Under the pieces are notes generated by a model that was not told the origin of the DNA, did not search any database, and worked only from the letters and a program-made list of their open reading frames with translations. A stretch of 30,272 nucleotides of DNA from a virus: positions 1 through 30,272 of the IMG/VR virus record IMGVR_UViG_3300030012_001957; one strand, 5' to 3'. Position numbers and translations under genes: made by a program. Shown here piece after piece: positions 8,913-28,072 of this stretch. Numbering within the stretch: position 1 is the first letter of the stretch; every line of letters begins with the position of its first letter.

Positions 8913-8920
8913 TATATTTG
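8913..8920 (+). promoter_or_regulatory. Bacteroidota -7-like element upstream of the sigma gene's terminator
   Basis: TATATTTG matches TAnnTTTG and shares the flank ACTATATTTGTATT with ATTATATTTGTATT at 1657. No clear -33 TTTG. The terminator at 8954 lies about 35 bases downstream, between this element and the sigma gene. Confidence 0.45.
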
Positions 8921-8953
8921 TATTTCATATTCTATGTTTTATTGATTAATAAG

Positions 8954-8986
8954 AAAGGCCTGACATTAATTTGTTAGGCTTTTTTT
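8954..8986 (+). terminator. Rho-independent terminator directly before the sigma gene
   Basis: GCCTGAC (8958-8964) pairs with GTTAGGC (8973-8979), with one G-T pair, around the loop ATTAATTT, followed by seven T and extended by AAAG/TTTT. Only 13 bases separate it from the sigma start codon. It ends the recombination operon and may also gate sigma expression. Confidence 0.85.
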
Positions 8987-13562: not shown

Positions 13563-13586
13563 ACAAATCCAAAAAAATACGTTTAT
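13563..13586 (+). promoter_or_regulatory. Late-promoter candidate 1 (ACA, 12 bases, TACGTT)
   Basis: ACA at 13563-13565, 12 bases, TACGTT at 13578-13583, then 8 bases to the ATG at 13592. The same layout recurs at 21030, 22417 and 24767. It sits in the 34-base gap before the tail block. Transcription from it would be almost leaderless. Confidence 0.65.
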
Positions 13587-13591
13587 ATATT

Positions 13592-14341
13592 ATGGAAACT
13601 AAAATTAAAATTCCAACAGAATTAAGCGAAATATCATTAGGAGATTATCAGCGCTTCGTTGATGTATCTGAAAAATCAAATGATGATACATTCATATTTG
13701 AGAAGATGGTTGAAATATTCTGCAATATTCAATTGATGGAAGTAATCCAAATCAAATGGACGGATGTTCAATATATAGCAGGAAAGATTACTCAAGCATT
13801 TCAGAAGAAGCCTGAATTTAAGAACAGATTTAAAATCAAAGATATTGAGTTCGGATTCATTCCAAGCCTGGAAGACATCAGTTTCGGAGAATTTATTGAT
13901 ATGCAAAATAACATTGATAAGATTGAAGATTTTCACAAAGCAATGGCGGTAATGTATCGACCAATAGTTGAAAGCAGAAAAGATAAATATTTGATTGAGG
14001 ATTATGTTTCTTCGGCTAATTATGCGGAGGTAATGAAATTTGCTCCTGTTGATGTTGCATTAGCAGCAAAGGTTTTTTTTTGCGATTTGCAAAAAGAATT
14101 ATTGAGCAGTACAATTATTTATTTGAAAGATCTGATGATGAAGGAGGATTCGGAGAGTTTTCGGAAAGAGTTCAGTTTGCAAAACAATGGGGTTGGTATT
14201 CAAGCGTTTATGGAATCGCAGGTGGAGATCTACAGAAATTTAGAAGCGTTACAAAATTGCCCGTACATGACTGCCTTACCTTCCTATCTTTTGAAAAGCA
14301 AAAGCGAAATATCGAGAATAATGAGATACAACGACAATTAA
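13592..14341 (+). CDS. Tail assembly chaperone, zero-frame product (gpG-like)
   Basis: The 249-residue protein begins P-T-E-L-S-E-I-S-L-G-D-Y-Q-R-F, a start I associate with Bacteroidota phage tail-region proteins. Its position before the neck and tail genes, and a second frame opening at a nine-T run (14073-14081), match lambda G/T-type tail assembly chaperones that keep the tape measure soluble. The zero frame stays open for 86 codons past the run, so both frames are read across the same DNA. Its codons there (TCG, CGG, GGG, CCG) are rarer in this genome than those of the -1 frame. Function is by analogy. Confidence 0.65.
   Translation: METKIKIPTELSEISLGDYQRFVDVSEKSNDDTFIFEKMVEIFCNIQLMEVIQIKWTDVQYIAGKITQAFQKKPEFKNRFKIKDIEFGFIPSLEDISFGEFIDMQNNIDKIEDFHKAMAVMYRPIVESRKDKYLIEDYVSSANYAEVMKFAPVDVALAAKVFFCDLQKELLSSTIIYLKDLMMKEDSESFRKEFSLQNNGVGIQAFMESQVEIYRNLEALQNCPYMTALPSYLLKSKSEISRIMRYNDN
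14073..14081 (+). promoter_or_regulatory. Slippery nine-T run for -1 ribosomal frameshifting
   Basis: In zero frame the codons are GTT TTT TTT TGC, offering a T-TTT-TTT slippery heptamer. Slipping back one base gives TTT TTT TTG CGA and enters a frame that opened at 14053, just after a TGA at 14050-14052. I did not resolve a downstream stimulatory structure. Confidence 0.7.
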
Positions 14342-14355
14342 AAAAACCTATTTAA
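14080..14355 (+). CDS. Tail assembly chaperone, -1 frameshift extension (gpT-like)
   Basis: A 91-codon open frame in -1 phase to the preceding gene and overlapping its last 87 codons. It contains W-G-W-Y-S-S-V-Y-G-I-A-G-G-D and V-T-K-L-P-V-H-D-C-L-T-F-L, matching a pattern I associate with phage tail-chaperone second halves, and it uses normal backbone codons. The frame has no ATG from its opening at 14053 to its stop; the only start-like codon is TTG at 14080, inside the T-run. Expression by -1 frameshift at 14073-14081 is therefore the simplest reading and gives a fusion of about 254 residues. Independent initiation at TTG is the alternative. The coordinates given are the unique-frame part. 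Confidence 0.72.
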   Translation: MRFAKRIIEQYNYLFERSDDEGGFGEFSERVQFAKQWGWYSSVYGIAGGDLQKFRSVTKLPVHDCLTFLSFEKQKRNIENNEIQRQLKKPI

Positions 14356-14814
14356 ATGAGTTATTATAATATATTAAATAAGATCAAAACAGAATTAGAT
14401 GCTGATCCTTTTACAAATACAACAACAGAAGGAGATCTTAATTCAGTTGATTTATCTAAACAAACCATTTTTCCGCTTACGCATATTATAATAAATAATG
14501 CAACATTCAGAGGAAATGTTATTCAATATAACATGAGCATCTTAGCAATGGATATTGTTGATTTTGATAAGGATGAAACAACGGATAAATTCAGAGGTAA
14601 TGATAATACTCATGATATTTTTAATACTCAGATATCTCTTCTAAATAGATTATATGAGAAGTTAAGAAGAGGAAATCTTTACGATGATAATTATCAGGTT
14701 GATGGAGATCCAACGCTTGAACCATTTACTGACAGATTTGAAAATACTTTATGCGGGTGGACATTAACAATGAATATATTAATTCCTAATGATATGACCG
14801 TTTGCGATGTTTGA
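14356..14814 (+). CDS. Neck/tail protein, tail-terminator candidate
   Basis: The 152-residue protein follows the chaperone pair directly. It has a mixed beta pattern and a distinctive end (F-T-D-R-F-E-N-T-L-C-G-W-T-L, then I-P-N-D-M), which I recall from structural proteins of Bacteroidota phages. Size and position suit a tail terminator or tail-completion protein, which caps the tail tube and joins it to the head. The start is one base after the frameshift-product stop, and the end overlaps the next gene by eight bases. The family is recalled, not proven; some other neck protein is possible. Confidence 0.55.
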   Translation: MSYYNILNKIKTELDADPFTNTTTEGDLNSVDLSKQTIFPLTHIIINNATFRGNVIQYNMSILAMDIVDFDKDETTDKFRGNDNTHDIFNTQISLLNRLYEKLRRGNLYDDNYQVDGDPTLEPFTDRFENTLCGWTLTMNILIPNDMTVCDV

Positions 14815-15343
14815 TAATACTGAAATATTAGAAACGATTGAGAAATTCAAGGCGCTTGTTATTGAAGAAGCAAAAGGCAATCTTCAAAAAATGAATAAAG
14901 ATACATCAGGCAAATTATCTAATTCAATAAAAGGAGAAACAAAGGTAATGAAGAATTCAATCAGGATTTCATTTGATATGGAAAATTATGGATGGTTTCA
15001 AGATTTAGGAGTTAGCGGAAGAAGAACCGTAAGAACAGATACTCCATTCAGTTACAGAACGCAGCCTCCTCCATCAAGAGCATTAGAGAAATGGGCAAAA
15101 AGAAAACAGATAAAAGGAAGAGATAAAAAAACAGGAAGATTTATATCTTATAAAAGCCTATCATATTTGATTGCGCAGAGCATTTTTAGAGATGGAATCA
15201 AAGCATCATTATTCTTTACAAAGCCATTTCAAAAGCATTACAAAACATTAGGAAAAGAATTACAAGAAAAATACGGATTATCCATGATAAAATTATTTGA
15301 TGATATCATGCAGGAAAGTTTAAAAAAATTTAAAAACAATTAA
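14807..15343 (+). CDS. HK97 gp10-like neck/tail-completion protein candidate
   Basis: The 178-residue protein has a helical N-terminus, then G-K-L-S-N-S-I-K-G, Y-G-W-F-Q-D-L-G-V-S-G and a late S-L-S-Y-L-I-A-Q-S-I-F-R-D-G-I-K segment followed by F-F-T-K-P-F. The order (N-terminal helix, Y-x-x-F-Q-D-L-G, C-terminal helix) is that of HK97 gp10-type proteins that seal the neck. Overlap with the preceding terminator-like gene supports a head-tail joining role. Highly basic overall. Function is inferred from motif style and gene neighbours. Confidence 0.55.
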   Translation: MFDNTEILETIEKFKALVIEEAKGNLQKMNKDTSGKLSNSIKGETKVMKNSIRISFDMENYGWFQDLGVSGRRTVRTDTPFSYRTQPPPSRALEKWAKRKQIKGRDKKTGRFISYKSLSYLIAQSIFRDGIKASLFFTKPFQKHYKTLGKELQEKYGLSMIKLFDDIMQESLKKFKNN

Positions 15344-15345
15344 CA

Positions 15346-16485
15346 ATGCCAAATATATTTGCAAGATCTCCATATATTATTGAAGTAGATGAAACGTCAG
15401 TTGTTGGATCGCAGTTAGATCTAACTTTTTATTATCCTGGAACATCGCCAGGAACTGCCCAATATACGCTTAATAAAAAAATTCCTGCATCTAATAATCT
15501 GAAGATGTATTATGATATATCTCCATATTGCAGGGAATATTTAAAGTTTACAACAAGGCAAAGCATAATTGGAACGCTTCCAACAACAAGCGGAATTGTT
15601 GCAAGTAATAACGATCAATATGTATTATTGAGAGTTCAGAGATATAAAGAAACAACAACAGGCCAATTTGCATTATTAGATACAACAACATATTATTGTT
15701 TTGATGGTTATGGATATTATTCAGAAGGCAGCAATCCAACAAATGCAGATTATATTTTTAGCGGATCTAAATATGCAACATTAAAAGAAGGAACATATAA
15801 TTATAAATATTCAGCGCTTGGAAATCCAACAGCAAATGCAGATGATAGAGCAGGAATTTTAGGAGTATTCGGCGCATCAACTTTAGATTCAGTTAAATAT
15901 ACAGATCTTGTAACAGGATCATCAACAACATTTACAACTCCTTTTGCAAGCGCGCAAATTTTATACGATGTCCCAAGCGTTTGGGCAGGATATTATGCTA
16001 ACGGAAATAAGTTGGAGATATGGCAAAACATAAGCGTTCCTTCAGCAGTTCTTTTAGGAACATGGATTTTTAAACCTGTATGCGAACCTAAATATACTCC
16101 TGTAATGATTGACTTTGTGAACAAGTTTGGATATTGGCAAAGGGAGTTCTTTTATAAAGCATCCAGAGATAGCATAAGCGTTCAAGAAACGGAATATAAT
16201 TTGATGCAATCTAATTCATTGAGTTACTCAACATTAGAGGGCCAAAGAAGAGCATTCAATATCAACGGCCAAGAATCAATTGTTTGCAATACAGGATTCG
16301 TTGATGAAGGTTATTCAGAAACAATTCAGCAGATCCTATTATCTGAAAAAATATTATTAGATAATTTGCCTGTTACAACATCAACTAAAAGCATTGACAA
16401 GATAAAAGGAGTAAATGCAGAAAAGCCAATCAATTATCAGATCAGTTTTAAATATTCCTTTGAGGCAATTAATTCTGTAATATAA
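15346..16485 (+). CDS. Tail structural protein, unknown role
   Basis: A 379-residue beta-rich protein starting M-P-N-I-F-A-R-S-P-Y-I-I-E-V, with many Thr, Ser and Tyr. A start of this form, followed by a large tail protein, recurs in Bacteroidota phages. It has no coiled coil or membrane segment. Lying between the neck genes and the large hub-like protein, it is probably a tail-tip or baseplate component, possibly surface-exposed and adhesive. The stop overlaps the next ATG by one base (TAATG). I cannot assign a fold. Confidence 0.55.
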   Translation: MPNIFARSPYIIEVDETSVVGSQLDLTFYYPGTSPGTAQYTLNKKIPASNNLKMYYDISPYCREYLKFTTRQSIIGTLPTTSGIVASNNDQYVLLRVQRYKETTTGQFALLDTTTYYCFDGYGYYSEGSNPTNADYIFSGSKYATLKEGTYNYKYSALGNPTANADDRAGILGVFGASTLDSVKYTDLVTGSSTTFTTPFASAQILYDVPSVWAGYYANGNKLEIWQNISVPSAVLLGTWIFKPVCEPKYTPVMIDFVNKFGYWQREFFYKASRDSISVQETEYNLMQSNSLSYSTLEGQRRAFNINGQESIVCNTGFVDEGYSETIQQILLSEKILLDNLPVTTSTKSIDKIKGVNAEKPINYQISFKYSFEAINSVI

Positions 16486-18899
16486 TGAAAAGAAGCATTC
16501 AAATATATGTAGAGGGAGTTAAGTTAGATTTATTCAATGATGAGCAGATTCAAGTTAATTCCACGGTTCAGAATATATCTGATATATCCAAAGTATATTG
16601 CGATTTCAGTCAGTCTTTTTCTGTTCCTGCAACTCCAAATAATAATAAGGTATTTAGCCATTTTTATAATTCAGAGGTATTCAAATATAACTCAACTCAG
16701 TTTGATGTTAATGTAAGAAAAGATGCGCAGATTGATATTAATTTAACGGCATTTAGAACAGGTAAGATTCAACTTGAAAAAGCAAATATAAAAAAGGGTA
16801 AGCCTGAAAGTTATCAGATTACATTTTACGGAGATATCACAAGCCTTAAAGATAAGTTTGCAGAGGATCTTTTAGGAGATGTTGATCTTTCTTCTTTAGA
16901 TCATCTATATAATGGAACAGAAGTATTTAATAGGATAACAGATAACTCAACTAATTATGAAGTTAGATATCCATTAATCAGTTCAAAAAGAAATTGGGTT
17001 TATGGAGGAGGATCAGCAGATGACATTACAGATTCAACAGGCAGGATTGATTATCTTGAATTATTTCCTGCGGTTAAAATATCATCTCTTTTTAATGCAA
17101 TTGCATCTCATTATGGATTGACTTTTAACGGAACATTTTTATCAGATCAGAGATTTACGGATTGCTTTTTATGGGGAAAAACTACAAACGCTAATACGCT
17201 TGATTTCATAACGCAGCCGCAAAGAGTTGATTTTGTTTTAGGATTTGCAGATGGAGGAGTTATCAATGTTCCATTTGATTTTGCAAATGATACTCTTTCA
17301 TATTCTGATCAATTCTTTTTTTTAGCAAATACATCTTATCCATCTCCATATTTTAACAGAAGATTCAGAACAAGATTTACAATATATGATATATCTTCAG
17401 CAACTGCAACATGGTATATTGATTTATATAAGGATGGAGTATTATATTCAACAACGCAAGGAACAGGAAACTCAACGCAAACATATACGCTTTTAGAAGA
17501 AGCAGCAGCGCCAGGATTAAACACAACTTTATATATGGAGGTTAGATCATCAGAGCAGATGAGTTTTAAAACAAGAGTTTATTGCGATGAATTATATGAT
17601 TACAATGATACATCAACAACAGGAGTTCCTATTATTTCAACTGATGTTTTTACGGTTGCATCTTATGGGCCTTCGCAAACATTAACAGGAAATTCTAATT
17701 TAGCAGGATTAGTTCCTGAAATGAAGGTTGCTGATTTCTTTTCAGGCATCTTAAAAGTTTTTAATTTAACTTGTTATGGAACGGCTGCAAATACTTTTCA
17801 GATTGAACCATTGGATATATGGTATCAAGTAGGAGATATTCATGACATAACTAAATATACAGATATTGATTCAATCGATGTTGATCGAGTTCCTTTATAC
17901 AAAAGGATTAAATTGAAATATCAAGAAAGCGATTCAATTTTAAACAAACAATACAAGGCATTATTTCAAAAAAATTATGGAGATGATGATCAGGATTTTT
18001 CATATGATGGAAGCGAATTCAATGTTGAATTGCCATTTGAGAATTTGATGGGCCAAAGATTTGATAATACTACAACGCAGGTTGCCTATGCATTAACTGA
18101 AAATTTAGATCCATATACTCCAAAGCCATGTTTATTTTATATGTATGAAAGGCAGGCAACAGATGTAAAATTATATAATGGATCATCAGTTGTTGATTTG
18201 GTTAATTATATGCCATTCGGCCAAGATCTTCTTTTTAATGGAGTAGATAATTACTCTTTAAATTTTGGGCCTGCAATGAGTACGTTTTTATTGCAGCCTG
18301 TTCAAGATGGATTAACGAAAACCTATTACATTAGTTATCTTCTAAATTTATATGATCTTCAAAACAGATTGGTTTCTGTTAAAACGCAATTACCGATTTC
18401 TTTGCTTACTAAATTGAGATTAAATGACAGGCTAATTATCAGAGATAAGCGATACGTTATAAATGAGATGAAGAGCAATCTAACATCAGGAGAAGTCAAT
18501 TTTACATTGCTTTTAGATTTCAGAGATGTATTGCCTGTTACAGTTATTCCATCTCCTTCAGGAGCAGGATGCGTTGATGTTCCTATAAATCTTCCAAATG
18601 GAGTTTGTTCAGCAGCAATTGCAACATCAACTCCAGGAGTAACAATAACTCCTTCATCAGTTACATCATCTCAGATCATTGAAGTATGCGTTCCTGCAAA
18701 TGCTAATCCGCAAACTTTTATTGTAACAGAAGATACTAATTTATTATTTCCGCCTATTCTTTATAAGTATGTAAATACGGAAGATAATTTTAGAATAGTA
18801 ACAGAAGGAAGCGCAAATCAAACAATAGTTTTAACCGTTACATTTACATATTGCAACGGAGCAGTAGATGATCAAACAATCGTAATTCAGCAACCATGA
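16485..18899 (+). CDS. Large tail-tip/hub-like structural protein
   Basis: The 804-residue protein opens with a beta-rich N-terminus containing D-F-S-Q-S-F-S-V-P-A-T-P-N-N near 41-54, a pattern I recall at the start of large tail proteins in Bacteroidota phages and prophages. The middle (about 130-640) contains numerous aromatic and glycine-rich strands. The last 110 residues (from A-G-C-V-D-V-P near 694) have three or four cysteines and look like an Ig-like or BACON-like adhesion domain. A hub or distal-tail function with surface-binding C-terminus is likely. It precedes the tape-measure gene, the reverse of most siphoviruses. Exact role unproven. Confidence 0.6.
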   Translation: MKRSIQIYVEGVKLDLFNDEQIQVNSTVQNISDISKVYCDFSQSFSVPATPNNNKVFSHFYNSEVFKYNSTQFDVNVRKDAQIDINLTAFRTGKIQLEKANIKKGKPESYQITFYGDITSLKDKFAEDLLGDVDLSSLDHLYNGTEVFNRITDNSTNYEVRYPLISSKRNWVYGGGSADDITDSTGRIDYLELFPAVKISSLFNAIASHYGLTFNGTFLSDQRFTDCFLWGKTTNANTLDFITQPQRVDFVLGFADGGVINVPFDFANDTLSYSDQFFFLANTSYPSPYFNRRFRTRFTIYDISSATATWYIDLYKDGVLYSTTQGTGNSTQTYTLLEEAAAPGLNTTLYMEVRSSEQMSFKTRVYCDELYDYNDTSTTGVPIISTDVFTVASYGPSQTLTGNSNLAGLVPEMKVADFFSGILKVFNLTCYGTAANTFQIEPLDIWYQVGDIHDITKYTDIDSIDVDRVPLYKRIKLKYQESDSILNKQYKALFQKNYGDDDQDFSYDGSEFNVELPFENLMGQRFDNTTTQVAYALTENLDPYTPKPCLFYMYERQATDVKLYNGSSVVDLVNYMPFGQDLLFNGVDNYSLNFGPAMSTFLLQPVQDGLTKTYYISYLLNLYDLQNRLVSVKTQLPISLLTKLRLNDRLIIRDKRYVINEMKSNLTSGEVNFTLLLDFRDVLPVTVIPSPSGAGCVDVPINLPNGVCSAAIATSTPGVTITPSSVTSSQIIEVCVPANANPQTFIVTEDTNLLFPPILYKYVNTEDNFRIVTEGSANQTIVLTVTFTYCNGAVDDQTIVIQQP

Positions 18900-19066
18900 T
18901 AGAAAACATAATGAATATGCTCAAATTAACGGAGCATTTAGGAGAAACAGATAACATTGAAATAGCCAAAGGAAAGTATAAACTTTATTCAGGAATTAAG
19001 GATATATACAAACAAGAAAAAAGAAACAATCATTTTAAAAAATTGAAAGATGGCAGAAAATTATAA
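18896..19066 (+). CDS. Small basic protein between hub and tape measure (56 aa)
   Basis: The ATG overlaps the hub stop (ATGA) and the frame runs 56 residues, ending 17 bases inside the tape-measure gene. It has a helical N-terminus (M-N-M-L-K-L-T-E-H-L-G) and a lysine/arginine-rich end (K-R-N-N-H-F-K-K-L-K-D-G-R-K-L). It fills an otherwise empty 150-base gap, has backbone codon use and is coupled on both sides, so it is probably a real gene. Its function is unknown; a tail-assembly helper is possible. Confidence 0.65.
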   Translation: MIENIMNMLKLTEHLGETDNIEIAKGKYKLYSGIKDIYKQEKRNNHFKKLKDGRKL

Positions 19067-21038
19067 TCTTAATTTTGATATAAACTCAAACGGAGTTAAT
19101 GACGCAGAAGAAAAATTCCTGGCATTAGGTAAATCTATTGATAAAGCAAGGCAGGAACTTGATCAAATGCGAGATGCTAACGAACAAGGATCAGCAGCAT
19201 TTCAGCAACAGAAGCAAGAACTTGAACAAATGGAAAGCGCCTTTAGAGATCTCAATAAAGAGATGAAAGGAGTTGATGCAACATTTGAAGAAGTTTACGG
19301 AGAAGTTCAGCCATTAACAACTGCATTAGGAGAAGCAGAAGATCGGCTATACCAATTAGCATTAGCAGGAGATACAACATCAAAAGAATATCAAGATCTT
19401 TTAGATAAAGTTACAAGATATAGAAAAGTTCAAATTCAAACAGATCAAGTAGTTGATGCATCTGCTACAACATTTAGTCAAAAATTAGGCGGAGCGCTAT
19501 CAGGAGCAGCAGGAGGATTCTCAGCAGTTCAGGGAGCAATGGGTTTATTTGGCGCTGAATCAGAAGCATTAGAATCAACTTTATTGAAGGTTAATTCAGC
19601 AATGGCATTGGCTCAAGGAATTGAAGGATTAAAGGAAGGCGCTAAAAGTTTTAAATTATTAGGATTATCAGCAACAAAAGCATTTAAAGGAATGAAAGGC
19701 GCATTTCTTGCAACAGGGATTGGAGCGTTTGTTGTTACTTTAGGAGTTGTTGTTGCTTATTGGGATGATATAAGCGAAGCAATTGGTTTTGGAACAGATG
19801 CAGTTGAAGATCAAGAGGACGCAGTAAAGAATCTTCAAGAAGAAACTAAAAAACAACTTGACATCATGAATGATATAGTAAATAATAATCAAAATTATAT
19901 CAACAGGCAAATAGATCAAATAAAAAACGAAGAAGAAATAAAAAATTTACAAGCGCAGGGCGGAGACAATCAAGAACGCATAAACGAATTGCAAAGAGCG
20001 AACATACAAATAGAACTACAAAATTTAAGGGTGCGCCTTGAAAGCACAAAAGAATTATTGACGCAAACGGAACTGCTTGAATTGCAGGGCCAAATTTACC
20101 GCAAAGAACAAGAACTGCAAAGAACAGAAATTAAAAAAACAAGAAGATCTCACAGAAGCCATAGAAGAGCAGTTAAAAAAGAAATGATTTCAGAATTGGA
20201 TTTTGCTCGAATGATTGAAGATTTGAAATTAGAACAATTAGATGCATCAACAGAAAGCGAAATTGAAAGATTAAACGTTAAATATGATCGCATTATTGAA
20301 GATATTAAGAGAAATGAAAAGTTAAAAGAGGAACAAAAAACTGCATTAATTAATGAACAGGAAAAAATCAGAGAACGACAATTATTTAAAATACAAAGAG
20401 ATGGATTGAATTCTGAATTTACAATGAAAATTCGCAAAACTAAAGAAATTGAAACTGCAAAAACAGAATTAATCATTGATGAAGAAAGAATCAGAAATGC
20501 AGAGATTGAAAGATTGGCAGTTGAAAGAAGAGAAAAGGCAAAAGAGAATGCAGCCATAATTGCGCAGATGTCAATCGATGGTTTAAGATTGGTTTCTGAT
20601 GTTGCTCAACTATTTGCAGGTAAAAGCGAAAAAGCAGCAAGAAGAGCGTTCAATATAAAGAAAGCGGCAGATATTGCAGAAGCAACAATGAGCGGATATA
20701 AAGCAGTATTATCAACTTATGCAAATGCTCCAGGCGGCCCTGTTCTTAAAGGTATTGCAGCAGGTATTGCAGGAGGATTCGCAGCGGTACAAATTGGAAA
20801 GATAGCATCAGCCCAATTTCAAAGCGGAGATTCAGGAGGAGGAGGAGATCTTAATTCTGATATTCCAACAGGAGGAGATGTAGCAGCAGCAGCGCCGCAA
20901 TTTAATGTTGTTGGAGATACAGGCGCATCTCAGTTGGCCCAAATTCAGCAGCAGCCAATGCAAGCATTTGTTGTTTCAGGAGATGTTACATCAGCGCAAA
21001 GCCTTGATCGAAACAAAATACAAAACGCAACAATCTAA
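19050..21038 (+). CDS. Tail tape measure protein
   Basis: The 662-residue protein has an N-terminal coiled coil (to about 140), a Gly/Ala-rich hydrophobic stretch (about 155-245, including A-T-G-I-G-A-F-V-V-T-L-G-V-V-V-A, a transmembrane-like segment), a long charged coiled coil (about 255-500) and a Gly/Ala-rich C-terminus ending with Q-F-N-V-V-G-D-T-G-A-S. This is the usual tape-measure architecture. At roughly 0.15 nm per residue the tail would be about 100 nm, a siphovirus length. It sets tail length and may enter the host membrane during DNA injection. It lies downstream of the hub-like gene and is separated from the chaperone pair by five genes. Confidence 0.82.
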   Translation: MAENYNLNFDINSNGVNDAEEKFLALGKSIDKARQELDQMRDANEQGSAAFQQQKQELEQMESAFRDLNKEMKGVDATFEEVYGEVQPLTTALGEAEDRLYQLALAGDTTSKEYQDLLDKVTRYRKVQIQTDQVVDASATTFSQKLGGALSGAAGGFSAVQGAMGLFGAESEALESTLLKVNSAMALAQGIEGLKEGAKSFKLLGLSATKAFKGMKGAFLATGIGAFVVTLGVVVAYWDDISEAIGFGTDAVEDQEDAVKNLQEETKKQLDIMNDIVNNNQNYINRQIDQIKNEEEIKNLQAQGGDNQERINELQRANIQIELQNLRVRLESTKELLTQTELLELQGQIYRKEQELQRTEIKKTRRSHRSHRRAVKKEMISELDFARMIEDLKLEQLDASTESEIERLNVKYDRIIEDIKRNEKLKEEQKTALINEQEKIRERQLFKIQRDGLNSEFTMKIRKTKEIETAKTELIIDEERIRNAEIERLAVERREKAKENAAIIAQMSIDGLRLVSDVAQLFAGKSEKAARRAFNIKKAADIAEATMSGYKAVLSTYANAPGGPVLKGIAAGIAGGFAAVQIGKIASAQFQSGDSGGGGDLNSDIPTGGDVAAAAPQFNVVGDTGASQLAQIQQQPMQAFVVSGDVTSAQSLDRNKIQNATI

Positions 21039-21054
21039 ATTTTATACGTTAATA
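21030..21054 (+). promoter_or_regulatory. Late-promoter candidate 2 (ACA, 12 bases, TACGTT)
   Basis: ACA begins at 21030, overlapping the end of the tape-measure gene; TACGTT is at 21045-21050, with exactly 8 bases to the ATG at 21059. Both spacings are identical to the sites at 13563 and 24767. Confidence 0.65.
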
Positions 21055-21058
21055 TACC

Positions 21059-22300
21059 ATGAAAATAATTGAATTAATATTAAATGAGGAAGATGAGAAA
21101 TCAGGAATTGATGCAATTTCTGTAGTTGAATCTCCTGCAATAGAAAGCGACTTTATTGCTTTAAATAAGCATCAGATTGAATTGAAAACAATCGATGATG
21201 AAAAGAAGATCTTGATGGGATTGGCATTAGTTCCAATGAAACAGATTTACAGAAAGAATGAAAAAACTAATGAAGAATACTACATATATTTTTCTAAAGA
21301 AACTATCAGAAAAGCAAGTCAATTATTCTTGAAAAATTCTAATCAGAATAATGCAACATTAGAGCATCAAACAAAAATAGATGGGATGACAATTGTCGAA
21401 TCCTGGATTGTTGAAGATGCAAAGAAAGATAAATCTGCATTATATAATTTTAATGCTCCTGTCGGTTCTTGGATGGTTAGCATGAAAGTAGATAATCCTG
21501 AGATATGGAAAAAAGTAAAATCAGGAGAAGTAAAAGGATTTAGCATTGAAGGGTATTTCGCTGAGAAGGTTGAAGCAAGCAAGCAAGAATTTAAATCAGT
21601 TGTAATTGATGATGATCTTGCAATTATAGATGATCGGATTGCATATTCAACTAAAGAAAAAGCAATCCTTGTTTCTAAAGATATGGGATGCGAAGGATAT
21701 CATGAACACGAATTTGAAAATAAGGTTTGGTTTATGCCATGCGAAACGCATGAATTAAATGAACAGATTCCAACTATTGATTTGAAAAAACCATGTCAAA
21801 GCGGATACGAAATGATTGGCTTCAAAAGAAAAGGAGGCCGCAGAGTTCCTAATTGCGTTCCAATAAAAAACTCAACTGAATTAGAATCTTATGCAGATTA
21901 TCCTGATGCAGTTAAGAACAATGCCAAAAGAGGAATTGAACTTAATGAAAAGAACAATAATAAATGCGCAACGCAAACAGGCAAAGTAAGAGCGCAGCAA
22001 TTAGCAAATGGCGAAGCAGTAAGCGAAGAAACAATCAAAAGAATGTATTCATATTTAAGCAGAGCGAAAACATATTATGAAGATGCTGATACAAATGATT
22101 GCGGAAATATATCTTATTTACTTTGGGGAGGATTGGCAGCGCTTAGATGGAGCGAAAGCAAGTTAAAAGAGTTGGGCAAATTAGAAGCAGCCAAACAAGA
22201 AAGAGATCAAGAGATTATTGCAGAGTTAAAAGACTTAATTTTAGATTATGAGAAAAAACGAAAAAAGAAAAAAAAGAAGAAAAAACGCTACACCAAGTAA
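21059..22300 (+). CDS. Prohead protease (XkdF-like) with extra C-terminal domains
   Basis: The 413-residue protein starts with an XkdF-like serine protease domain (PF14550) over about 1-175: Y-F-S-K-E-T-I-R-K-A, then A-T-L-E-H-Q with a conserved His, then V-E-S-W-I-V and G-E-V-K-G-F-S-I-E-G, where Ser is the likely nucleophile. A cysteine/histidine segment (about 217-240) and a P-C-Q-S-G-Y-E ... R-V-P-N-C-V-P block follow. From about 285 there is a further helical domain (P-D-A-V-K-N-N-A-K-R-G-I ... Y-L-L-W-G-G-L-A-A) that I recall from many Bacteroidota phage proteins. The last 17 residues are nearly all Lys/Arg because they overlap the next gene. It should process scaffold and capsid proteins. 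Confidence 0.78.
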   Translation: MKIIELILNEEDEKSGIDAISVVESPAIESDFIALNKHQIELKTIDDEKKILMGLALVPMKQIYRKNEKTNEEYYIYFSKETIRKASQLFLKNSNQNNATLEHQTKIDGMTIVESWIVEDAKKDKSALYNFNAPVGSWMVSMKVDNPEIWKKVKSGEVKGFSIEGYFAEKVEASKQEFKSVVIDDDLAIIDDRIAYSTKEKAILVSKDMGCEGYHEHEFENKVWFMPCETHELNEQIPTIDLKKPCQSGYEMIGFKRKGGRRVPNCVPIKNSTELESYADYPDAVKNNAKRGIELNEKNNNKCATQTGKVRAQQLANGEAVSEETIKRMYSYLSRAKTYYEDADTNDCGNISYLLWGGLAALRWSESKLKELGKLEAAKQERDQEIIAELKDLILDYEKKRKKKKKKKKRYTK

Positions 22301-22406
22301 AACATCTCCTCAAGGCGGAACAAGGGGATGCCTTTGCGAAGATAATACTTATCATCCTGAATGTTGCGATGGAACAATCCATGCTCAAGGAATAGGCAAA
22401 ATTTAG
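22248..22406 (+). CDS. Cysteine-rich small protein overlapping the protease gene (52 aa)
   Basis: The frame starts at ATG 22248 inside the last 53 bases of the protease gene and ends at 22406. Its N-terminus is Lys/Arg-rich; the remainder has R-G-C-L-C-E-D-N-T-Y and E-C-C-D-G followed by Q-G-I-G. The C-x-C plus C-C pairing could bind zinc. I recall this pattern in small proteins of Bacteroidota phages at this site. It lies before scaffold and capsid genes, so a capsid-associated role is possible but unproven. Confidence 0.7.
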   Translation: MRKNEKRKKRRKNATPSKTSPQGGTRGCLCEDNTYHPECCDGTIHAQGIGKI

Positions 22407-22416
22407 AGAAAATCCG

Positions 22417-22440
22417 ACAGAAGAAAAAAATTACGTTTAT
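22417..22440 (+). promoter_or_regulatory. Late-promoter candidate 3 (CCGACA, TACGTT)
   Basis: CCGACA at 22414-22419 and TACGTT at 22432-22437 are 12 bases apart. The six-base upstream part is identical to that at 24764. Here 23 bases, with AAAAAAGG, separate it from the scaffold ATG at 22461, unlike the 8 bases at the other three sites. Confidence 0.65.
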
Positions 22441-22460
22441 TAGAAAAAAGGAAAATTAAA

Positions 22461-23117
22461 ATGAATACAACTGAAATATTAACAAAGATCAAAACTCTTT
22501 TAGGAGTTGAAGCAGAAGAGGTTTGCCTGGCGCAAATGAAATTAGAAGATGGTTTAACAATCGTTGAATCTGATTCTTTCTCAGCAGAAGAAAGCATTGT
22601 AATTGTAACAGAGGATGGAAAAGTTCCATTACCTGAAGGAGATTACAAATTAGAAGATGGCAGAATGCTTGTTGTAAAAGAGGAAGGCGTTATCTTTGAG
22701 ATTAAAGAGGAAGAGAAAGAAGAAGAGGTTGCAGAAGAAGTTGAAGAAGAAGCAAAATCAGAAGAAGAGGAATACATGGAGAAAGAAACATCTAATGCAA
22801 CTCCTAAGAAAATTGTTGAATCAATAACTAAGGAATCATTCTTTTCAGAAATTGAAAAATTAAAAGAAGAGAACGAATCTTTAAAGAAAGAACTTGAAGA
22901 TCTTAAATTAAGTTCAGTTGAAAAAACGGAAGAAATTAAAGAAGAAAAAACAGAGGAGAAAACAGAAGAAACAACTGAAGTTGAATTATCAGTTGAAGAA
23001 GAAGTTAATCCAATTGTTCACAATCCTGAAAACAAAAAAGAAATTGAAGGATTTAAATATGCTCAAAACAGAAGCGAAACAACTCTTGATAGAGTAATCA
23101 AAAGAATTAACAAATAA
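22461..23117 (+). CDS. Capsid scaffolding protein candidate
   Basis: The 218-residue protein directly precedes the major capsid gene. Residues 1-78 form a small beta domain (L-E-D-G-L-T-I-V ... P-L-P-E-G-D-Y-K-L-E-D-G), a form recalled from Bacteroidota phage scaffolds. From 79 to about 185 it is extremely Glu/Lys-rich with long coiled-coil potential (about 125-150). A conserved-looking end follows (K-K-E-I-E-G-F-K-Y-A-Q-N-R). Acidic coiled-coil proteins at this place are normally scaffolds that guide procapsid assembly and are removed by the protease encoded just upstream. Confidence 0.75.
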   Translation: MNTTEILTKIKTLLGVEAEEVCLAQMKLEDGLTIVESDSFSAEESIVIVTEDGKVPLPEGDYKLEDGRMLVVKEEGVIFEIKEEEKEEEVAEEVEEEAKSEEEEYMEKETSNATPKKIVESITKESFFSEIEKLKEENESLKKELEDLKLSSVEKTEEIKEEKTEEKTEETTEVELSVEEEVNPIVHNPENKKEIEGFKYAQNRSETTLDRVIKRINK

Positions 23118-23144
23118 ATAAATTTTAAATCATAAATTTTAAAT
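23118..23144 (+). repeat. Tandem 13-base AT-rich repeat before the capsid gene
   Basis: ATAAATTTTAAAT occurs twice, at 23118-23130 and 23132-23144, separated by one C, filling the whole gap before the ATG at 23146. The leader has no Shine-Dalgarno sequence; A/T-rich unstructured leaders favour initiation in Bacteroidota. Confidence 0.85.
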
Positions 23145-23145
23145 A

Positions 23146-24075
23146 ATGGCAAATCCAGTAACAACAGGAACATCGTATAACGGCGAATTCGCAGGTAAAT
23201 ACATTTCCGCAGCGCTTTTAAGCGCATCAACATTAGATAAAGGGCTTATAACAATAATGCCTAATGTTAAACATAAATCAGTAATTCAAAAAGCAGCATA
23301 CGGAGATATCGTAGCAAATGCAAGTTGTGATTTTACTGCATCAGGAACTTTAACTCTTACTGAAAGAGTAATCGAACCTGAAGAGTTCCAAGTAAACATC
23401 CAATTGTGCAAAAAAGACTTGCATGACACGTGGCAGGCGGCTGAAATGGGCTTCAGCGCATACAGCGAATTACCTGCATCTTTCGAAGATTTTGTAATTG
23501 CTCATACAGCAGAAAAAGTTGCTGCAAAATTAGAGTCTACAATTTGGGAAGGAGCAGATGCAAACGCAGGAGAATTTGCAGGATTTTCTCACTTATTAAA
23601 TAATGACGGAGATGTTGTTGACGTAACAGGAACAACTATTGATGCAAGTAACGTTATTACGGAGATGGGTAAGACAGTAGATGCAATACCGTCAGCCGTG
23701 TATGGGAAAGAGGACTTATTCATTTACGTTGCGCCAAACGTTGCGCGTGCATACATCAGAGCGTTAGGCGGATTCGGATCTCAAGGATTAGGCGCAAATG
23801 GAGTAAACGCTCAAGGTACAACATGGTTTAGCAACGGAGCGTTATCATTCGACGGTATTCCAGTAGTTGTAGCGCAGGGGCTTGGATCTAACAAAATGGT
23901 TGCAGCGCAAAAATCTAACTTATTCTTCGGTACAGGACTGTTAAATGATTCTAATGAGGTGAAACTTTTAGATATGAGTAACCTCGATGGAAGTCAGAAT
24001 GTGCGCGTAATTATGAGATATACTGCATCAGTTCAAACAGGAATTGGCGGAGACATCGTTTGGTACAAAGCATAA
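23146..24075 (+). CDS. Major capsid protein
   Basis: The 309-residue protein is in the position and size class of HK97-fold major capsid proteins: after protease and scaffold, before a strong terminator. The start (M-A-N-P-V-T-T-G-T-S-Y-N-G-E-F-A-G) is an E-loop/N-arm type region; a later V-A-P-N-V-A-R-A-Y-I-R-A-L-G-G-F-G and G-I-P-V-V-V-A-Q-G-L are typical P/A-domain strands recalled from Bacteroidota capsids. Its codons (GCG, AAC, TAC, GAC, GTA) differ from the neighbours in the way expected of a very highly expressed gene. The tandem repeat leader and the terminator behind it fit heavy transcription. Confidence 0.85.
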   Translation: MANPVTTGTSYNGEFAGKYISAALLSASTLDKGLITIMPNVKHKSVIQKAAYGDIVANASCDFTASGTLTLTERVIEPEEFQVNIQLCKKDLHDTWQAAEMGFSAYSELPASFEDFVIAHTAEKVAAKLESTIWEGADANAGEFAGFSHLLNNDGDVVDVTGTTIDASNVITEMGKTVDAIPSAVYGKEDLFIYVAPNVARAYIRALGGFGSQGLGANGVNAQGTTWFSNGALSFDGIPVVVAQGLGSNKMVAAQKSNLFFGTGLLNDSNEVKLLDMSNLDGSQNVRVIMRYTASVQTGIGGDIVWYKA

Positions 24076-24083
24076 TAATATTC

Positions 24084-24111
24084 AGGGAGGGGAAAGTCTC
24101 CTCCCTTTTTT
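24084..24111 (+). terminator. Terminator after the major capsid gene
   Basis: GGGAGGGG pairs with CTCCTCCC (one G-T pair) around a five-base loop, followed by six T. No promoter is visible between it and the next gene, so the tail-protein gene at 24133 probably depends on partial read-through. Confidence 0.88.
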
Positions 24112-24132
24112 AACTTTTAAAAACTTAAATCC

Positions 24133-24693
24133 ATGAGTTGTGACATAATTGGCGGACGCACTGAGCAGTGTAAGGACGCCGTAAGCGGACTACACGCTAT
24201 ATATATGATCAATTACGGAGATTTGGATATCCCTTCTGTTGTAACATATGGAACAGGAGATAATACAGATCAAATCACCGCAATAACAGGAGGAACAACA
24301 AGCCTGTATAAATTCGAACTAAAGGGTAATAATTCATTCGAGCAAACGATTAATTCAAGTCGTGAGAATGGAACAACATTTTTTCAGCAAGATCTTTCAA
24401 TTCAATTAAAACGCCAGGATGTTAAATCTACAAAGAATATCAAACTGATTTCTTACGGCAGACCAAGAATAATAATTCACGCAAGAGGAGATCAGTTCTT
24501 CTTAATGGGATTAGATCAAGGTTGCGATGTAACGGCAGGAACAATTTCAAGCGGGTCGGCCTTGGGTGATTTTAATGGGTATTCTCTTACGATGACGGCA
24601 ATGGAAGAATTACCTGCGAACATGATAAACTGTACAACTGAAGCAGAATTAGTTACGCTAATGGGCGGATCAGTTGTTGTAACATCTTCATAA
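24133..24693 (+). CDS. Major tail (tube) protein candidate
   Basis: The 186-residue protein starts M-S-C-D-I-I-G-G-R-T and contains F-E-L-K-G-N-N-S-F-E-Q, N-S-S-R-E-N-G-T-T-F-F-Q-Q and F-F-L-M-G-L-D-Q-G, all recalled from an abundant structural protein type in Bacteroidota phages. Its size, beta-rich nature and its own terminators on both sides, next to the capsid gene, suit the major tail tube subunit. An alternative is a capsid decoration protein. Being next to the capsid gene and far from the tape measure is unusual and consistent with strong expression being needed for both. Confidence 0.6.
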   Translation: MSCDIIGGRTEQCKDAVSGLHAIYMINYGDLDIPSVVTYGTGDNTDQITAITGGTTSLYKFELKGNNSFEQTINSSRENGTTFFQQDLSIQLKRQDVKSTKNIKLISYGRPRIIIHARGDQFFLMGLDQGCDVTAGTISSGSALGDFNGYSLTMTAMEELPANMINCTTEAELVTLMGGSVVVTSS

Positions 24694-24731
24694 GATATTC
24701 CTTTATCCTTATATTTCATATAACTAAAAAC

Positions 24732-24760
24732 AAAGGGGGTTGTTCTAACTCCCTTTTTTT
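24732..24760 (+). terminator. Terminator after the major tail protein gene
   Basis: AAAGGGGGTT pairs with AACTCCCTTT (one G-T pair) around the five-base loop GTTCT, running into seven T. Just four bases later the CCGACA half of late-promoter candidate 4 begins. Confidence 0.88.
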
Positions 24761-24766
24761 ATTCCG

Positions 24767-24790
24767 ACAATTTTGTAATTTTACGTTATC
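24767..24790 (+). promoter_or_regulatory. Late-promoter candidate 4 (CCGACA, TACGTT)
   Basis: CCGACA at 24764-24769, 12 bases, TACGTT at 24782-24787, 8 bases to the ATG at 24796. It follows a terminator immediately, so the portal, connector, appendage and lysis genes would need this promoter. Confidence 0.7.
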
Positions 24791-24795
24791 TTATT

Positions 24796-25152
24796 ATGAT
24801 AATATTAAAAGTCGATACTAATCCCCAAACATTTAAGTTCATTCCAAGATCCAAAACTTATGATGGATTATTCATAAGAGATGAATCGGAGAATATAGAA
24901 ACGCAGATAACAATATCATCTTCATCATCTAATGATTATTATGAATCGATTACTGCAACATTTCATGTCGTTTCTCCTGCATTTACTTTGGTTGAGAATA
25001 GGTTTTATCGATTATTAATAAAAAACGGAACAGAGGTAGTTTATAGAGATCGCATATTTGTAACAAATCAAACTGATCTTTCTAATTATTCAGTTAATAA
25101 TGGAGTTTATAATTCAAACTCTTCAACAAATGAATTTATAATTTATGAATAA
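24796..25152 (+). CDS. Small beta-rich protein upstream of portal
   Basis: The 118-residue protein is predicted to be nearly all beta strands (I-I-L-K-V-D ... T-F-K-F-I-P ... A-T-F-H-V-V-S ... F-Y-R-L-L-I-K-N-G). It ends with a Ser/Asn-rich segment and F-I-I-Y-E. I recall similar small proteins in Bacteroidota phages near structural genes, without a known function. It overlaps the portal gene by eight bases. A minor head or decoration protein is possible. It is the first gene behind late-promoter candidate 4. Confidence 0.6.
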   Translation: MIILKVDTNPQTFKFIPRSKTYDGLFIRDESENIETQITISSSSSNDYYESITATFHVVSPAFTLVENRFYRLLIKNGTEVVYRDRIFVTNQTDLSNYSVNNGVYNSNSSTNEFIIYE

Positions 25153-27040
25153 TAATACTCACATATTAAACTTGGCAGCATATGAAGCGCCTGAAGTAGT
25201 TGAATCAACAAAACGAGATTGGGTTCTTTACGGAGATGATAATTCTTACTTTGATTTCCTTATTGATACTTACAAAAATTCAACAAGCAACAACGCAATA
25301 ATTAATAATATCTGTAAATTAGTTTACGCAAAAGGATTAAATGCCTTAGATGCTTCTAAAAAGCCCAATGAATATGCTCAGGCAATCATGTTATTTGATG
25401 CAGATGATCTTAAAAAGATTATTCTTGATTATAAAATGTTAGGGCAAGCAGCATTTCAAGTTCATTATTCTAAGGATCATAAGAAAATAATCAAAGCAAT
25501 GCATATTCCGATTCAATTAATTGCGCCTGAAAAATGCAATGAAGACGGAAAAATCGAAGCATACTATTATTCTGATAATTGGAAGGAGATTAAAAAATTT
25601 CCGCCTAAAAGAATTCCATCTTTTGGAACATCTCAAGAGCAGATTGAAATCCTTTGTTTTAAGAACTATACTCCTGGCATGAAATATTATTCAGCAGTTG
25701 ATTATGTTGGAGGAATTTCATATGCAACGCTTGAGGAAGAAATAAGCGATTACTTGATTAATGATGTTCAAAATTCTTTCAGTTCAACGAAGGTTGTCAA
25801 TTTTAATAATGGCATACCTACAGAGGAGCAACAAAGATTGATCAGTTCTAAGGTAATGAATAAGTTGACAGGCGCAAATGGTCAGAAGGTAATTGTTTCA
25901 TTTAATGCAGATGAGCAATCAAAAACTACAATCGATGATATTCAGTTAAATAATGCTCCTGAGCATTACCAATATTTGGCTGATGAATGCATGAGAAAAA
26001 TCATGGTTTCTCATAACGTAACATCTCCTTTACTTTTTGGTATCGCATCAAAGAACGGATTCTCATCAAATGCTGATGAGTTAAAAGATTCATATATTCT
26101 TTTTGACAACATGGTTATTAAACCAATTCAAAATCAAGTAATAGATTCTTTAAATAAGATTTTGGCTTTTAATGGCATATCATTAAAACTGAGATTTGAA
26201 GAATTGCAGCCATTAACGGCTCAAGGAGATCTCACAAAAACAGATGAAGCAGAAGATATTATTAACGGAATTAATAATTTATCTCCATTGGTTGCAAATA
26301 AGGTTCTTGAAAATATGTCGCCAGAAGAGATTCGTTCATTAGTAGGATTGAAAAGCGCATTAAAAACAACGCCTGTTGAAGAAGGAGTTAATCTAAAGCA
26401 TGAGCATATCTTATCAGATGAAGATAAAGATCATCTTTTAGAAAACTTAGAAGGAGAAGTTATTGATCTTGAAGAATGGGAATTAGTTGATAAAAGAGAA
26501 GTTGATGAGGATAATGAAAGTATTGAGGATTGGGCAAATAAATTAATCAAGCCTAAAAAATCAGCGCTTACAAAATTAGCAGATTTCGTAAAGAGTTATC
26601 CAAACAAGAAATCATCATTGGATAAAGATATTTATAAGGTCAGATATTCATATGAGCGAATTGCTAAAAGTTCTAAGACAGGAAAGAGCAGAGATTTCTG
26701 CAAAAGAATGGAAGCAAGAACTGCAAAAGGAGTTGTTTACAGAAAAGAAGATATTGATCAAGCATCATTCCAGGGAGTAAATAATTCATTCGGCCATAAA
26801 GGGCAAAATTATTCTATCTTTAAATTCAAAGGCGGCGTTAATTGTCATCATGTATGGAAAGAAAATCTTTACAGATTAAAGAAAAAAACGGATGGAGATT
26901 ATTATAAAGATAAATCATTGAGCAGTTCAGAAGAAGTTAATTCTGTTCCTTATTCAGTTAATCCATCAGGAAACAAAGATTCAAAAATAGCGCCAATAAA
27001 TATGCCTAATCGAGGCCATCATCCAAACTATAAAAAATAA
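25145..27040 (+). CDS. Portal protein with MuF-like C-terminal domain
   Basis: The 631-residue protein is longer than a usual portal (about 400-500). Residues 1 to about 400 show portal features: W-V-L-Y-G-D-D-N-S-Y near the start, a clip/stem region with N-N-A-P-E-H-Y-Q-Y-L-A and T-S-P-L-L-F-G-I, and a long helix (about 300-350). After an acidic linker (about 400-485) comes a domain with Y-K-V-R-Y-S-Y-E-R-I, D-F-C-K-R-M and G-G-V-N-C-H-H-V-W, the style of MuF/gp7 head-morphogenesis proteins. The portal ring is the DNA entry point; the MuF part may travel in the capsid. It lies downstream of the capsid gene, an inverted order for siphoviruses. Confidence 0.8.
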   Translation: MNNNTHILNLAAYEAPEVVESTKRDWVLYGDDNSYFDFLIDTYKNSTSNNAIINNICKLVYAKGLNALDASKKPNEYAQAIMLFDADDLKKIILDYKMLGQAAFQVHYSKDHKKIIKAMHIPIQLIAPEKCNEDGKIEAYYYSDNWKEIKKFPPKRIPSFGTSQEQIEILCFKNYTPGMKYYSAVDYVGGISYATLEEEISDYLINDVQNSFSSTKVVNFNNGIPTEEQQRLISSKVMNKLTGANGQKVIVSFNADEQSKTTIDDIQLNNAPEHYQYLADECMRKIMVSHNVTSPLLFGIASKNGFSSNADELKDSYILFDNMVIKPIQNQVIDSLNKILAFNGISLKLRFEELQPLTAQGDLTKTDEAEDIINGINNLSPLVANKVLENMSPEEIRSLVGLKSALKTTPVEEGVNLKHEHILSDEDKDHLLENLEGEVIDLEEWELVDKREVDEDNESIEDWANKLIKPKKSALTKLADFVKSYPNKKSSLDKDIYKVRYSYERIAKSSKTGKSRDFCKRMEARTAKGVVYRKEDIDQASFQGVNNSFGHKGQNYSIFKFKGGVNCHHVWKENLYRLKKKTDGDYYKDKSLSSSEEVNSVPYSVNPSGNKDSKIAPINMPNRGHHPNYKK

Positions 27041-27045
27041 AAAAA

Positions 27046-27546
27046 ATGGCAGAAGCATTATTAATTTCAAGATCAGATATTGTTAAATTTACATCCATGA
27101 ACGGATCAGTAGATACTGATAAATTTATTCAATACATTAAGATCGCTCAGGACACGCATATACAGAACTATTTAGGAACAGATTTATTAGAGAAAATCCA
27201 GGCAGATATCATTGCAGGATCATTAGCAGGGAATTATTTAACATTGCTAACTAAGTATATTAAGCCAATGTTAATTCATTACGCAATGATGGAGTATTTG
27301 CATTTTGCAGCCTTCAGCATTTCGAACAAAGGAGTTTATAAACATCAGGCAGAGAATTCAGTAACGGCAACATCAGAGGAGATTAATGATCTTGTTGCTT
27401 CAGAAACTAAAATTGCAGAGCATTATTCTCAAAGATTTGTAGATTACATTTGCAATAATTCAAGTTTGTTTCCTGAATACAATTCGAATAGTAACGGAGA
27501 TATGTATCCATCTTCTGATGTAAATTACACTAATTGGTATATATGA
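27046..27546 (+). CDS. Head-tail connector (adaptor) candidate
   Basis: The 166-residue, largely helical protein directly follows the portal. It opens M-A-E-A-L-L-I-S-R-S-D-I-V-K-F and has Y-I-K-I-A-Q-D-T-H-I-Q-N-Y-L-G near 30-44 and a Y-I-K-P-M-L-I-H-Y-A-M-M helix near 70-82. The pattern (helix with N-Y-L-G-T, then long helices) matches Bacteroidota phage adaptor proteins of the DUF6712 kind. It would dock under the portal. The gene ends in an ATGA overlap with a small downstream frame. Assignment is from position and helix pattern. Confidence 0.55.
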   Translation: MAEALLISRSDIVKFTSMNGSVDTDKFIQYIKIAQDTHIQNYLGTDLLEKIQADIIAGSLAGNYLTLLTKYIKPMLIHYAMMEYLHFAAFSISNKGVYKHQAENSVTATSEEINDLVASETKIAEHYSQRFVDYICNNSSLFPEYNSNSNGDMYPSSDVNYTNWYI

Positions 27547-27656
27547 AAAAAATAATAACGAGAAAGCCAAAGGCGAAAAACATTATTAAATTAAAAAAAT
27601 ATTTAAACAATTATGGCAGAAAAGAAAATATCAGGGCTAACTGCAAAGGGAAGTAA
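27543..27656 (+). CDS. Possible small basic protein (37 aa)
   Basis: ATGA overlap with the connector stop; 37 residues, strongly basic (M-K-K-I-I-T-R-K-P-K-A-K-N-I-I-K-L-K-K-Y-L). The last 44 bases overlap the next gene. It would explain the 66-base gap otherwise left here. The coding case is weak: low complexity and AT-rich sequence can give such a frame by chance. Confidence 0.35.
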   Translation: MKKIITRKPKAKNIIKLKKYLNNYGRKENIRANCKGK

Positions 27657-28062: not shown

Positions 28063-28072
28063 AAATTAAATT

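Follow-up and report, generated by a model that had tools for sequence, protein, structure and literature searches.

The late genes of a phage of Bacteroidota-type bacteria are preceded by four copies of a two-part element. Judging from their sequence and placement, these are very probably late promoters for the host core RNA polymerase acting with an ECF-like sigma factor of the phage itself (9000..9596, + strand), with RNA predicted to start ~0-4 nt 5' of the ATG at P1, P2 and P4. The window analysed, a single strand, comprises positions 1 to 30,272 of the record IMGVR_UViG_3300030012_001957. The element (ACA, 12 bases, TACGTT) occurs exactly four times in it (13563, 21030, 22417 and 24767), only on the + strand, as a preliminary description of this DNA had reported. 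A shuffled window is expected to hold 0.05 copies, and none of 100 shuffles reached four. A relaxed two-box scan of the window found no fifth site of equal quality. The preliminary description had listed only four other TACGTT hexamers. The window in fact holds 12 in total, including minus-strand copies at 558, 2767, 10248 and 26015; the accompanying statement about ACA stands, as it is absent from all eight non-site copies.

All four sites are at late-gene starts, in agreement with their earlier placement in or across the gaps before late structural genes. Predicted promoter P1 (13563..13583, +), with ACA as the -35-like half and TACGTT (13578-13583) as the -10-like half, lies 8 bases 5' of the ATG at 13592 of the first tail-region gene. 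It would serve the tail genes up to a tape-measure-like gene (13592..21038, +). Predicted P2 (21030..21050, +) overlaps the 3' end of this 662-aa tape-measure-like gene, whose stop codon ends at 21038, and lies 8 bases 5' of the ATG at 21059 of the head maturation protease gene (PF14550; predicted unit 21059..22300, +). Predicted P3 (22417..22437, +) is separated by 23 bases from the ATG at 22461 of the scaffold/capsid operon, a probable unit (22461..24693, +) of a scaffold-like gene, a capsid-like gene (PHROG 11320 / 1623) and a 186-aa gene. Predicted P4 (24767..24787, +) is directly 3' of an intrinsic terminator (24732..24764, +; stem AAAGGGGGTT..AACTCCCTTT, T-rich tail; -12.4 kcal/mol, z -2.9) that most relatives have in the same position. 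It lies 8 bases 5' of the ATG at 24796 of the gene before the portal gene, and its presumed unit (24796..28885, +; 3' extent provisional) includes this 118-aa gene, the portal gene and downstream genes. The 8-base gap reported for three sites is therefore correct (13592, 21059 and 24796), as is the CCGACA half common to 22417 and 24767. The bases after TACGTT are TA, AA or AT at the four sites.

The phage sigma gene has a GTG start and encodes a 198-aa protein with regions 2 and 4. Region 2 matches PF04542 (27.0 bits, cut-off 24), and region 4 has no separate Pfam match. Residues 7-178 align to positions 7-163 of 165 in TIGR02937 (E=2e-10) with a score of 40.5 bits, just below the curated cut-off of 42.9; thus, we call the protein ECF-like and place it in no named ECF group. 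Its profile matches ECF SigL. A structure model has a second helical domain at 109-188, and its first matches, along the whole length, are ECF sigmas. The layout is that of ECF (group IV) sigmas, with region 4 but neither region 1 nor region 3, and a length of ~200 aa. When bacterial genomes were scanned with an alignment of the sigma, the matches listed had weak ECF similarity, mostly over region 2, and came from bacteria outside Bacteroidota, so no prophage or host was assigned from that scan. The position of the gene before ParB-methylase/terS/terL is conserved.

For ECF-type promoters, we looked for a CGT core in the -10 and an AAC-type -35 at about 15-17 bases. The CGT core is present at all four sites. 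The distance of 14-16 bases from ACA to CGTT that is seen across the relatives is at the short end for ECF promoters. ECF promoters of Flavobacterium are distinguished by a CGT box at -10 (PMC9723704). The sites in F. psychrophilum SM6 resemble ours in the CGT core of the -10 region and the Bacteroidota host, but they serve chromosomal genes, e.g. type IX secretion, and are attributed to host ECF sigmas (PMC9723704).

Host-type promoter boxes do occur elsewhere in the window. The only exact + strand match to the host-type promoter (TTTG-N19-TATATTTG; 1773..1803, with the -7 box at 1796) is 5' of the early operon starting at 1830. A host-type -7 box, TATATTTG (8913..8920, +), lies upstream of the sigma gene. 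Between it and the sigma start codon is a strong hairpin with a T-run (8950..8986, +; -19.9 kcal/mol, z -7.2), a putative terminator or attenuator conserved in L085-L089. Among 34 unique sequences upstream of the sigma gene in divergent relatives, 29 have TTG-N18..20-TAHHTTTG, with the -7 box ~23-24 nt 5' of the start codon.

The four sites could instead be read by the host primary sigma, with TACGTT as a variant -7 box (TAnnTTTG), but we consider this very unlikely. The TA and TT of such a box are correctly placed, and Flavobacterium has weak -33 boxes in any case (PMC6847099). However, F. johnsoniae -7 boxes, whose consensus TAHHTTTG has no G at the variable positions, are virtually without G at either of them (PMC6847099), and all our sites have CG there. 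The terminal TTG is also absent, host promoters lack the ACA that the sites hold at a fixed place, and many relatives lose the TA (AGCGTT, TTGTTT, AAAGTT) in step with their sigma. The likeness to the Bacteroidota -7 box noted in the preliminary description is thus superficial; its remark on the missing -33 box holds, as no TTTG is found 19 bases before the -7 position at any of the four sites. We rejected this reading on the CG and the missing -33 TTTG.

The signals at late genes are kept at almost exactly the same place in ~100 related virus sequences, whose records are mostly fragments. Relative to the ATG, the element keeps its register, with GTT at -11 to -9 and ACA near -30, and it usually sits just 3' of an intrinsic terminator. 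It is in register at orthologous late genes at more than 70 loci, with protein identity down to 32%. Of 901 genes in 20 records, 33 have a CGTT whose first base is exactly at -12, compared with 0-5 at other offsets. Two flavobacterial phages with no sigma match showed no such excess, nor did unrelated low-GC viral loci (549 genes). The P1 element also precedes the orthologue of its gene in L086, L089, L011, L026, L272, L293, L313 and others, and 27 non-redundant regions orthologous to that of P4 have ACA in all 27 and NGTT at -12 in 24. The -35-type half reads AACA, GACA or TACA and lies 14-16 bases away from CGTT, some lineages carry AGTT or TGTT instead of CGTT, and one sigma-bearing record, L022, is without GTT at -12. 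TACGTT itself is a single lineage's variant of a broader element, ACA(AA), 14-16 bases, (C/A/T)GTT, 8 bases, ATG. Lack of the elements at these genes in relatives had been named beforehand as an outcome that would refute the promoter claim; the result was strongly the opposite.

The conserved block might be a translation-start signal (a Kozak-like context) and no promoter: A at -3 aids initiation in Flavobacterium (PMC6847099) and is common at these sites. This is extremely improbable. The P3-type element is kept at a variable distance from the ATG (L006, L007, L008, L010, L023, L026, L011), and P3 and its orthologues hold the same block 21-25 bases or more from it, on which ground the reading was rejected. 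The ACA half is also beyond any start context, at P4 it follows an intrinsic terminator, and the block is missing from most of these phages' other genes.

Presence of the element tracks the sigma gene, as the preliminary description had proposed to check. When 2.9 million viral contigs were scanned blind with an extended pattern, the phage family accounted for 38 of 80 loci, compared with 2 of 80 for a control with the hexamer reversed, and we therefore rejected a chance origin. An ORF of at least 60 aa begins at the matched ATG in 40 of 42 family matches and in 3 of 42 others. Of 23 unrelated records with chance element matches, none encodes the sigma. It is encoded in every examined family record of ~26 kb or more, with the exception of a single contig that looks chimeric. 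This contig, G006 (52 kb, L014), was not taken as a counter-example despite lacking the sigma: its similarity to the phage record G012 (99.4%) is confined to the first 8.4 kb, and nothing in the remainder is shared with G012, hence the chimeric appearance. Four other candidates, G063-G066, have an AACAAA..CGTTAATA match without a sigma match; these matches are antisense to structural genes and were therefore treated as chance. G027 (25 kb) and records of 12-21 kb without the sigma were treated as fragments.

Promoter and sigma also vary together. Copies within one phage share a private -10 variant, and their spacer is nearly flat. Sites of different genes have an identity of 0.67 within a phage and 0.54 between phages (0 of 2000 permutations, which ignore phylogeny). 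Promoter similarity follows sigma similarity when corrected for the head protease (partial Mantel r=0.27; 0 of 2000 permutations, again ignoring phylogeny), and the reciprocal value for protease and promoter given the sigma is -0.11. The claim of a phage sigma regulon is thus supported by this covariation and the concerted variation within phages, together with co-occurrence and the ECF-type sequence and structure; the sites, their in-register conservation and their late-gene placement were likewise computed here.

The same variation bears on a host ECF sigma as the reader of the sites. Flavobacterium host ECF sigmas do use a CGT -10 box (PMC9723704), but each phage has a private variant that tracks its own sigma, the phage ECF-like sigma is family-wide and mostly has its own host-type promoter, and it would be left without a visible regulon; we give a host ECF sigma very little probability. 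Much the same low probability applies to the blocks being sites for a phage activator or antiterminator working with another sigma. Many genes of the phage are without known function and such a regulator could be missed, but a sigma directly explains the two-part spacing, the ECF-like -10 core and the fixed distance to the predicted start, and the covariation is with the sigma (the sole regulator compared).

For the phage ECF-like sigma as reader, we infer binding, activity, start positions and timing as follows. Region 4 would contact ACA(A), the -35-type half, and region 2 would contact TACGTT, the -10-type half with the CGT core. Host primary-sigma promoters (TTTG-N19-TAnnTTTG type) would drive the early genes, and in most of the divergent relatives also the sigma gene; the phage sigma would then activate head and tail genes in a two-step cascade. 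With 8 bases from the -10 to the ATG at P1, P2 and P4, RNA should start ~0-4 nt 5' of the start codon, and the geometry (CGTT at -12) predicts leaderless or nearly leaderless mRNAs there. P3 would give a short leader of ~15-19 nt. In F. psychrophilum, leaderless mRNAs are 5.5% of those mapped (PMC9723704), and thus the hosts do not generally favour them. The near-leaderless late programme, if true, would run in hosts where such mRNAs are rare, and the fixed 8-base gap makes their translation testable in hosts without Shine-Dalgarno signals.

A phage sigma with its own late promoters is an already known kind of system. In the text on Salmonella phage 7-11 (PMC8948821), the sigma SaPh711_gp47 recognizes late promoters GTAAtg-(16)-aCTA. 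As in the window, it has region 4, the bipartite promoters are 5' of late genes, and the host sigma serves early genes with the host core polymerase; starts lie 6-9 bases from the -10-type element. The window likewise has copies 5' of late genes that co-occur with a phage sigma. Phage 7-11 differs in promoter sequence and lineage, no fixed start-codon distance is described in that text, and its system has been demonstrated in vitro and in vivo, whereas that of the window is a prediction. The same text describes phiEco32, whose sigma gp36 also steers the host polymerase towards middle and late genes (promoters tAATGTAtA), but with single-element promoters, no region 4 homology and an extra co-regulator, gp79 (PMC8948821).

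For Bacteroidota phages, we found no report of such a late-promoter regulon or cascade in the open-access literature searched. The predicted cascade would lead from host sigma to phage ECF-like sigma to late genes. On balance, we think these phages represent a Bacteroidota phage lineage with a fixed, near-leaderless, genome-wide late programme, in which the ECF-like sigma co-evolves with the -10 box. The many natural sigma/promoter pairs, with different -10 boxes (CGTT, AGTT and TGTT), could readily be used to learn how DNA is recognized by ECF sigmas.

A tblastn search with the window sigma in a phage collection gave no match, because the counterpart in the isolated Nonlabens phage P12024S (NC_018271), gp33, is too divergent. 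We found no earlier report in the open-access literature of the P12024S element copies as promoters. In this phage, a Sigma70_r2 gene (gp33) occupies the locus that corresponds to the sigma gene of the window. Its late genes carry six copies of the element, which have CGTT at -12 and a spacer that exceeds that of the window by one or two bases. The two sigmas share ~18% identity in the alignment, yet the promoters are alike, and P12024S is an isolated phage in which the cascade prediction is testable at once.

The 30,272-base window contains four copies of the motif ACA-N12-TACGTT, against 0.05 expected, and all are on the + strand. These predicted late promoters lie upstream of the first tail-region gene (P1, 13563), the head maturation protease (P2, 21030; PF14550), the scaffold/capsid operon (P3, 22417) and, directly behind an intrinsic terminator, the gene preceding the portal gene (P4, 24767). 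TACGTT is separated from ATG by 8 bases at P1, P2 and P4, and by 23 bases at P3. The preliminary description was accurate on the sites, on the constant gap at three of them and on their position before late structural genes, but it left out four minus-strand TACGTT hexamers. It is unlikely that the sites are host -7 boxes, as the G at their variable position argues against this (PMC6847099); their CGT core fits the ECF motif known from Flavobacterium (PMC9723704). A second strong terminator (24084-24106), with no late promoter 3' of it, lies between a capsid-like gene (ending at 24075) and the gene at 24133, and perhaps sets how much capsid mRNA is made relative to the mRNA downstream.

Relatives were collected from viral contigs by portal search (80 loci) and sigma search (61 loci), and are strongly syntenic (tblastn). 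Aligned from the ATG, upstream regions of orthologous genes share one block with the window's sites (ACA or AACAAA near -30, GTT at -11 to -9, ATA-like bases, ATG), kept in relatives whose downstream proteins range from 97% to 32% in identity. Conservation at the same genes had been named beforehand as one of the points on which the prediction could fail. Upstream of the 24796 orthologue, ACA falls in the expected interval in 27 of 27 non-redundant regions and NGTT exactly at -12 in 24; an intrinsic terminator precedes the block in most cases. An isolated relative, the Nonlabens phage P12024S (34% portal identity), carries the element six times with CGTT at -12, upstream of gp01, gp05, gp08, gp41, gp44 and gp45. 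At divergent-clade loci from the sigma search (L094, L107, L141 and others), ACA...AGTT apparently lies inside the last terL codons, upstream of the 13592 orthologue, so that these bases would serve as promoter and coding sequence at once.

Among 901 predicted genes of 20 records, CGTT starts at -12 from the predicted start codon in 33, compared with 0-5 at every other offset from -40 to -4; AGTT is likewise maximal at -12 (25). CGTT/AGTT stands at -12 in 0 and 1 genes of P12002L and FCL-2, flavobacterial phages without a sigma hit, and in 1 of 549 genes from unrelated low-GC viral loci (mean at other offsets, 4.7). A blind scan of 2.9 million viral contigs for ACA-N12-TACGTT-N4-TA-N2-ATG used no protein information; 38 of the 80 loci listed were in phages with homologous structural genes, compared with 2/80 when the hexamer was reversed. 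Among the matches listed, those in this family opened an ORF of at least 60 aa in 40/42 cases and those elsewhere in 3/42. Most relatives' records are fragments.

The phage does appear to carry its own ECF-like sigma factor, as had been proposed. The 198-aa protein (9000-9596, +) contains sigma-70 region 2, over the Pfam cut-off, aligns along its length to the ECF superfamily model (E=2e-10, with a score slightly below the curated cut-off) and has a profile match to the ECF sigma SigL. Its predicted structure (mean pLDDT 78) first matches the ECF sigmas SigH, sigma-E and SigL. These matches have E ~3e-3 and low TM-scores, the likely reason being that the two domains have no fixed relative orientation. 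Presence of the element tracks the sigma gene, a check proposed earlier: sigma occurs in all examined family records of at least ~26 kb, bar one apparently chimeric contig, and in 0/23 unrelated records with chance element matches. P12024S encodes a Sigma70_r2 protein, gp33, at the matching locus. The public contig L014 (IMGVR_UViG_3300030380_004731; 52,016 bases) matches the L026 phage record in its first 8.4 kb alone (99.4%) and shares nothing with it in the other 43 kb; it is probably a two-phage chimera.

Copies before different genes of one phage carry a common private variant: for example, three copies in L011 read (A/T)ACGTTCATGTAAT, three in L026 AGCGTTATA, three in L025 TTGTTTTTA, and three in each of L313 and L338 TACGTTATATTA. 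Copies at different genes have an identity of 0.67 over the -16 to -3 block when they come from one phage and 0.54 when they come from two (0/2000 permutations, kinship ignored); the spacer, an internal control, scarcely differs (0.446 vs 0.416; 32/2000). Promoter similarity still tracks sigma similarity when protease similarity is controlled for (partial r 0.27; 0/2000 permutations, kinship ignored); with sigma in the comparison, protease similarity contributes nothing further (-0.11). The private variants and this covariation suggest that a trans-acting factor reads the sites.

Host holoenzyme would read the early genes: the early operon at 1830 is preceded, at 1715-1803, by a terminator-like sequence and then by an exact host promoter of Bacteroidota type, TTTG-N19-TATATTTG (1773). 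The holoenzyme may reach the sigma gene directly or via read-through. Of 34 unique regions upstream of that gene, 29 have a host-type promoter, TTG-N18..20-TAHHTTTG. In the clade to which the window belongs, a TATATTTG box (8913, a host-type -7 box) and then a very stable T-run hairpin (8950-8986; z -7.2; kept in L085-L089) lie 5' of the sigma GTG, and the hairpin is possibly an attenuator delaying sigma expression; in divergent relatives the order is reversed, terminator then complete host-type promoter. Host core polymerase with the phage sigma would then open the late promoters, a system that, judged from sequence, works like the 7-11-type phage sigma/late promoter pair. PMC8948821 places start sites of phages 7-11 and phiEco32 6-9 bases from the promoter element; by analogy, starts at P1, P2 and P4 are predicted at ~-3 to +1 of the ATG, and P3 would give a short leader instead. 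In F. psychrophilum, leaderless messages make up only 5.5% of the mRNAs mapped (PMC9723704), which would make a phage programme that relies on them unusual. No description of the regulon was found in the open-access papers searched (subscription papers and preprints were not among them), which is not proof of novelty.

The 30-kb genome has three DNA methyltransferase-like genes (5712-6341, 10231-11346 and 12799-13557), one of which, shortly 3' of the sigma gene, has a ParB-like N-terminal part. The gene at 12799-13557 lies between terL and P1; it is absent from L086, L088 and L089, where P1 directly follows the terL stop, and thus looks like an insertion that left P1 intact.
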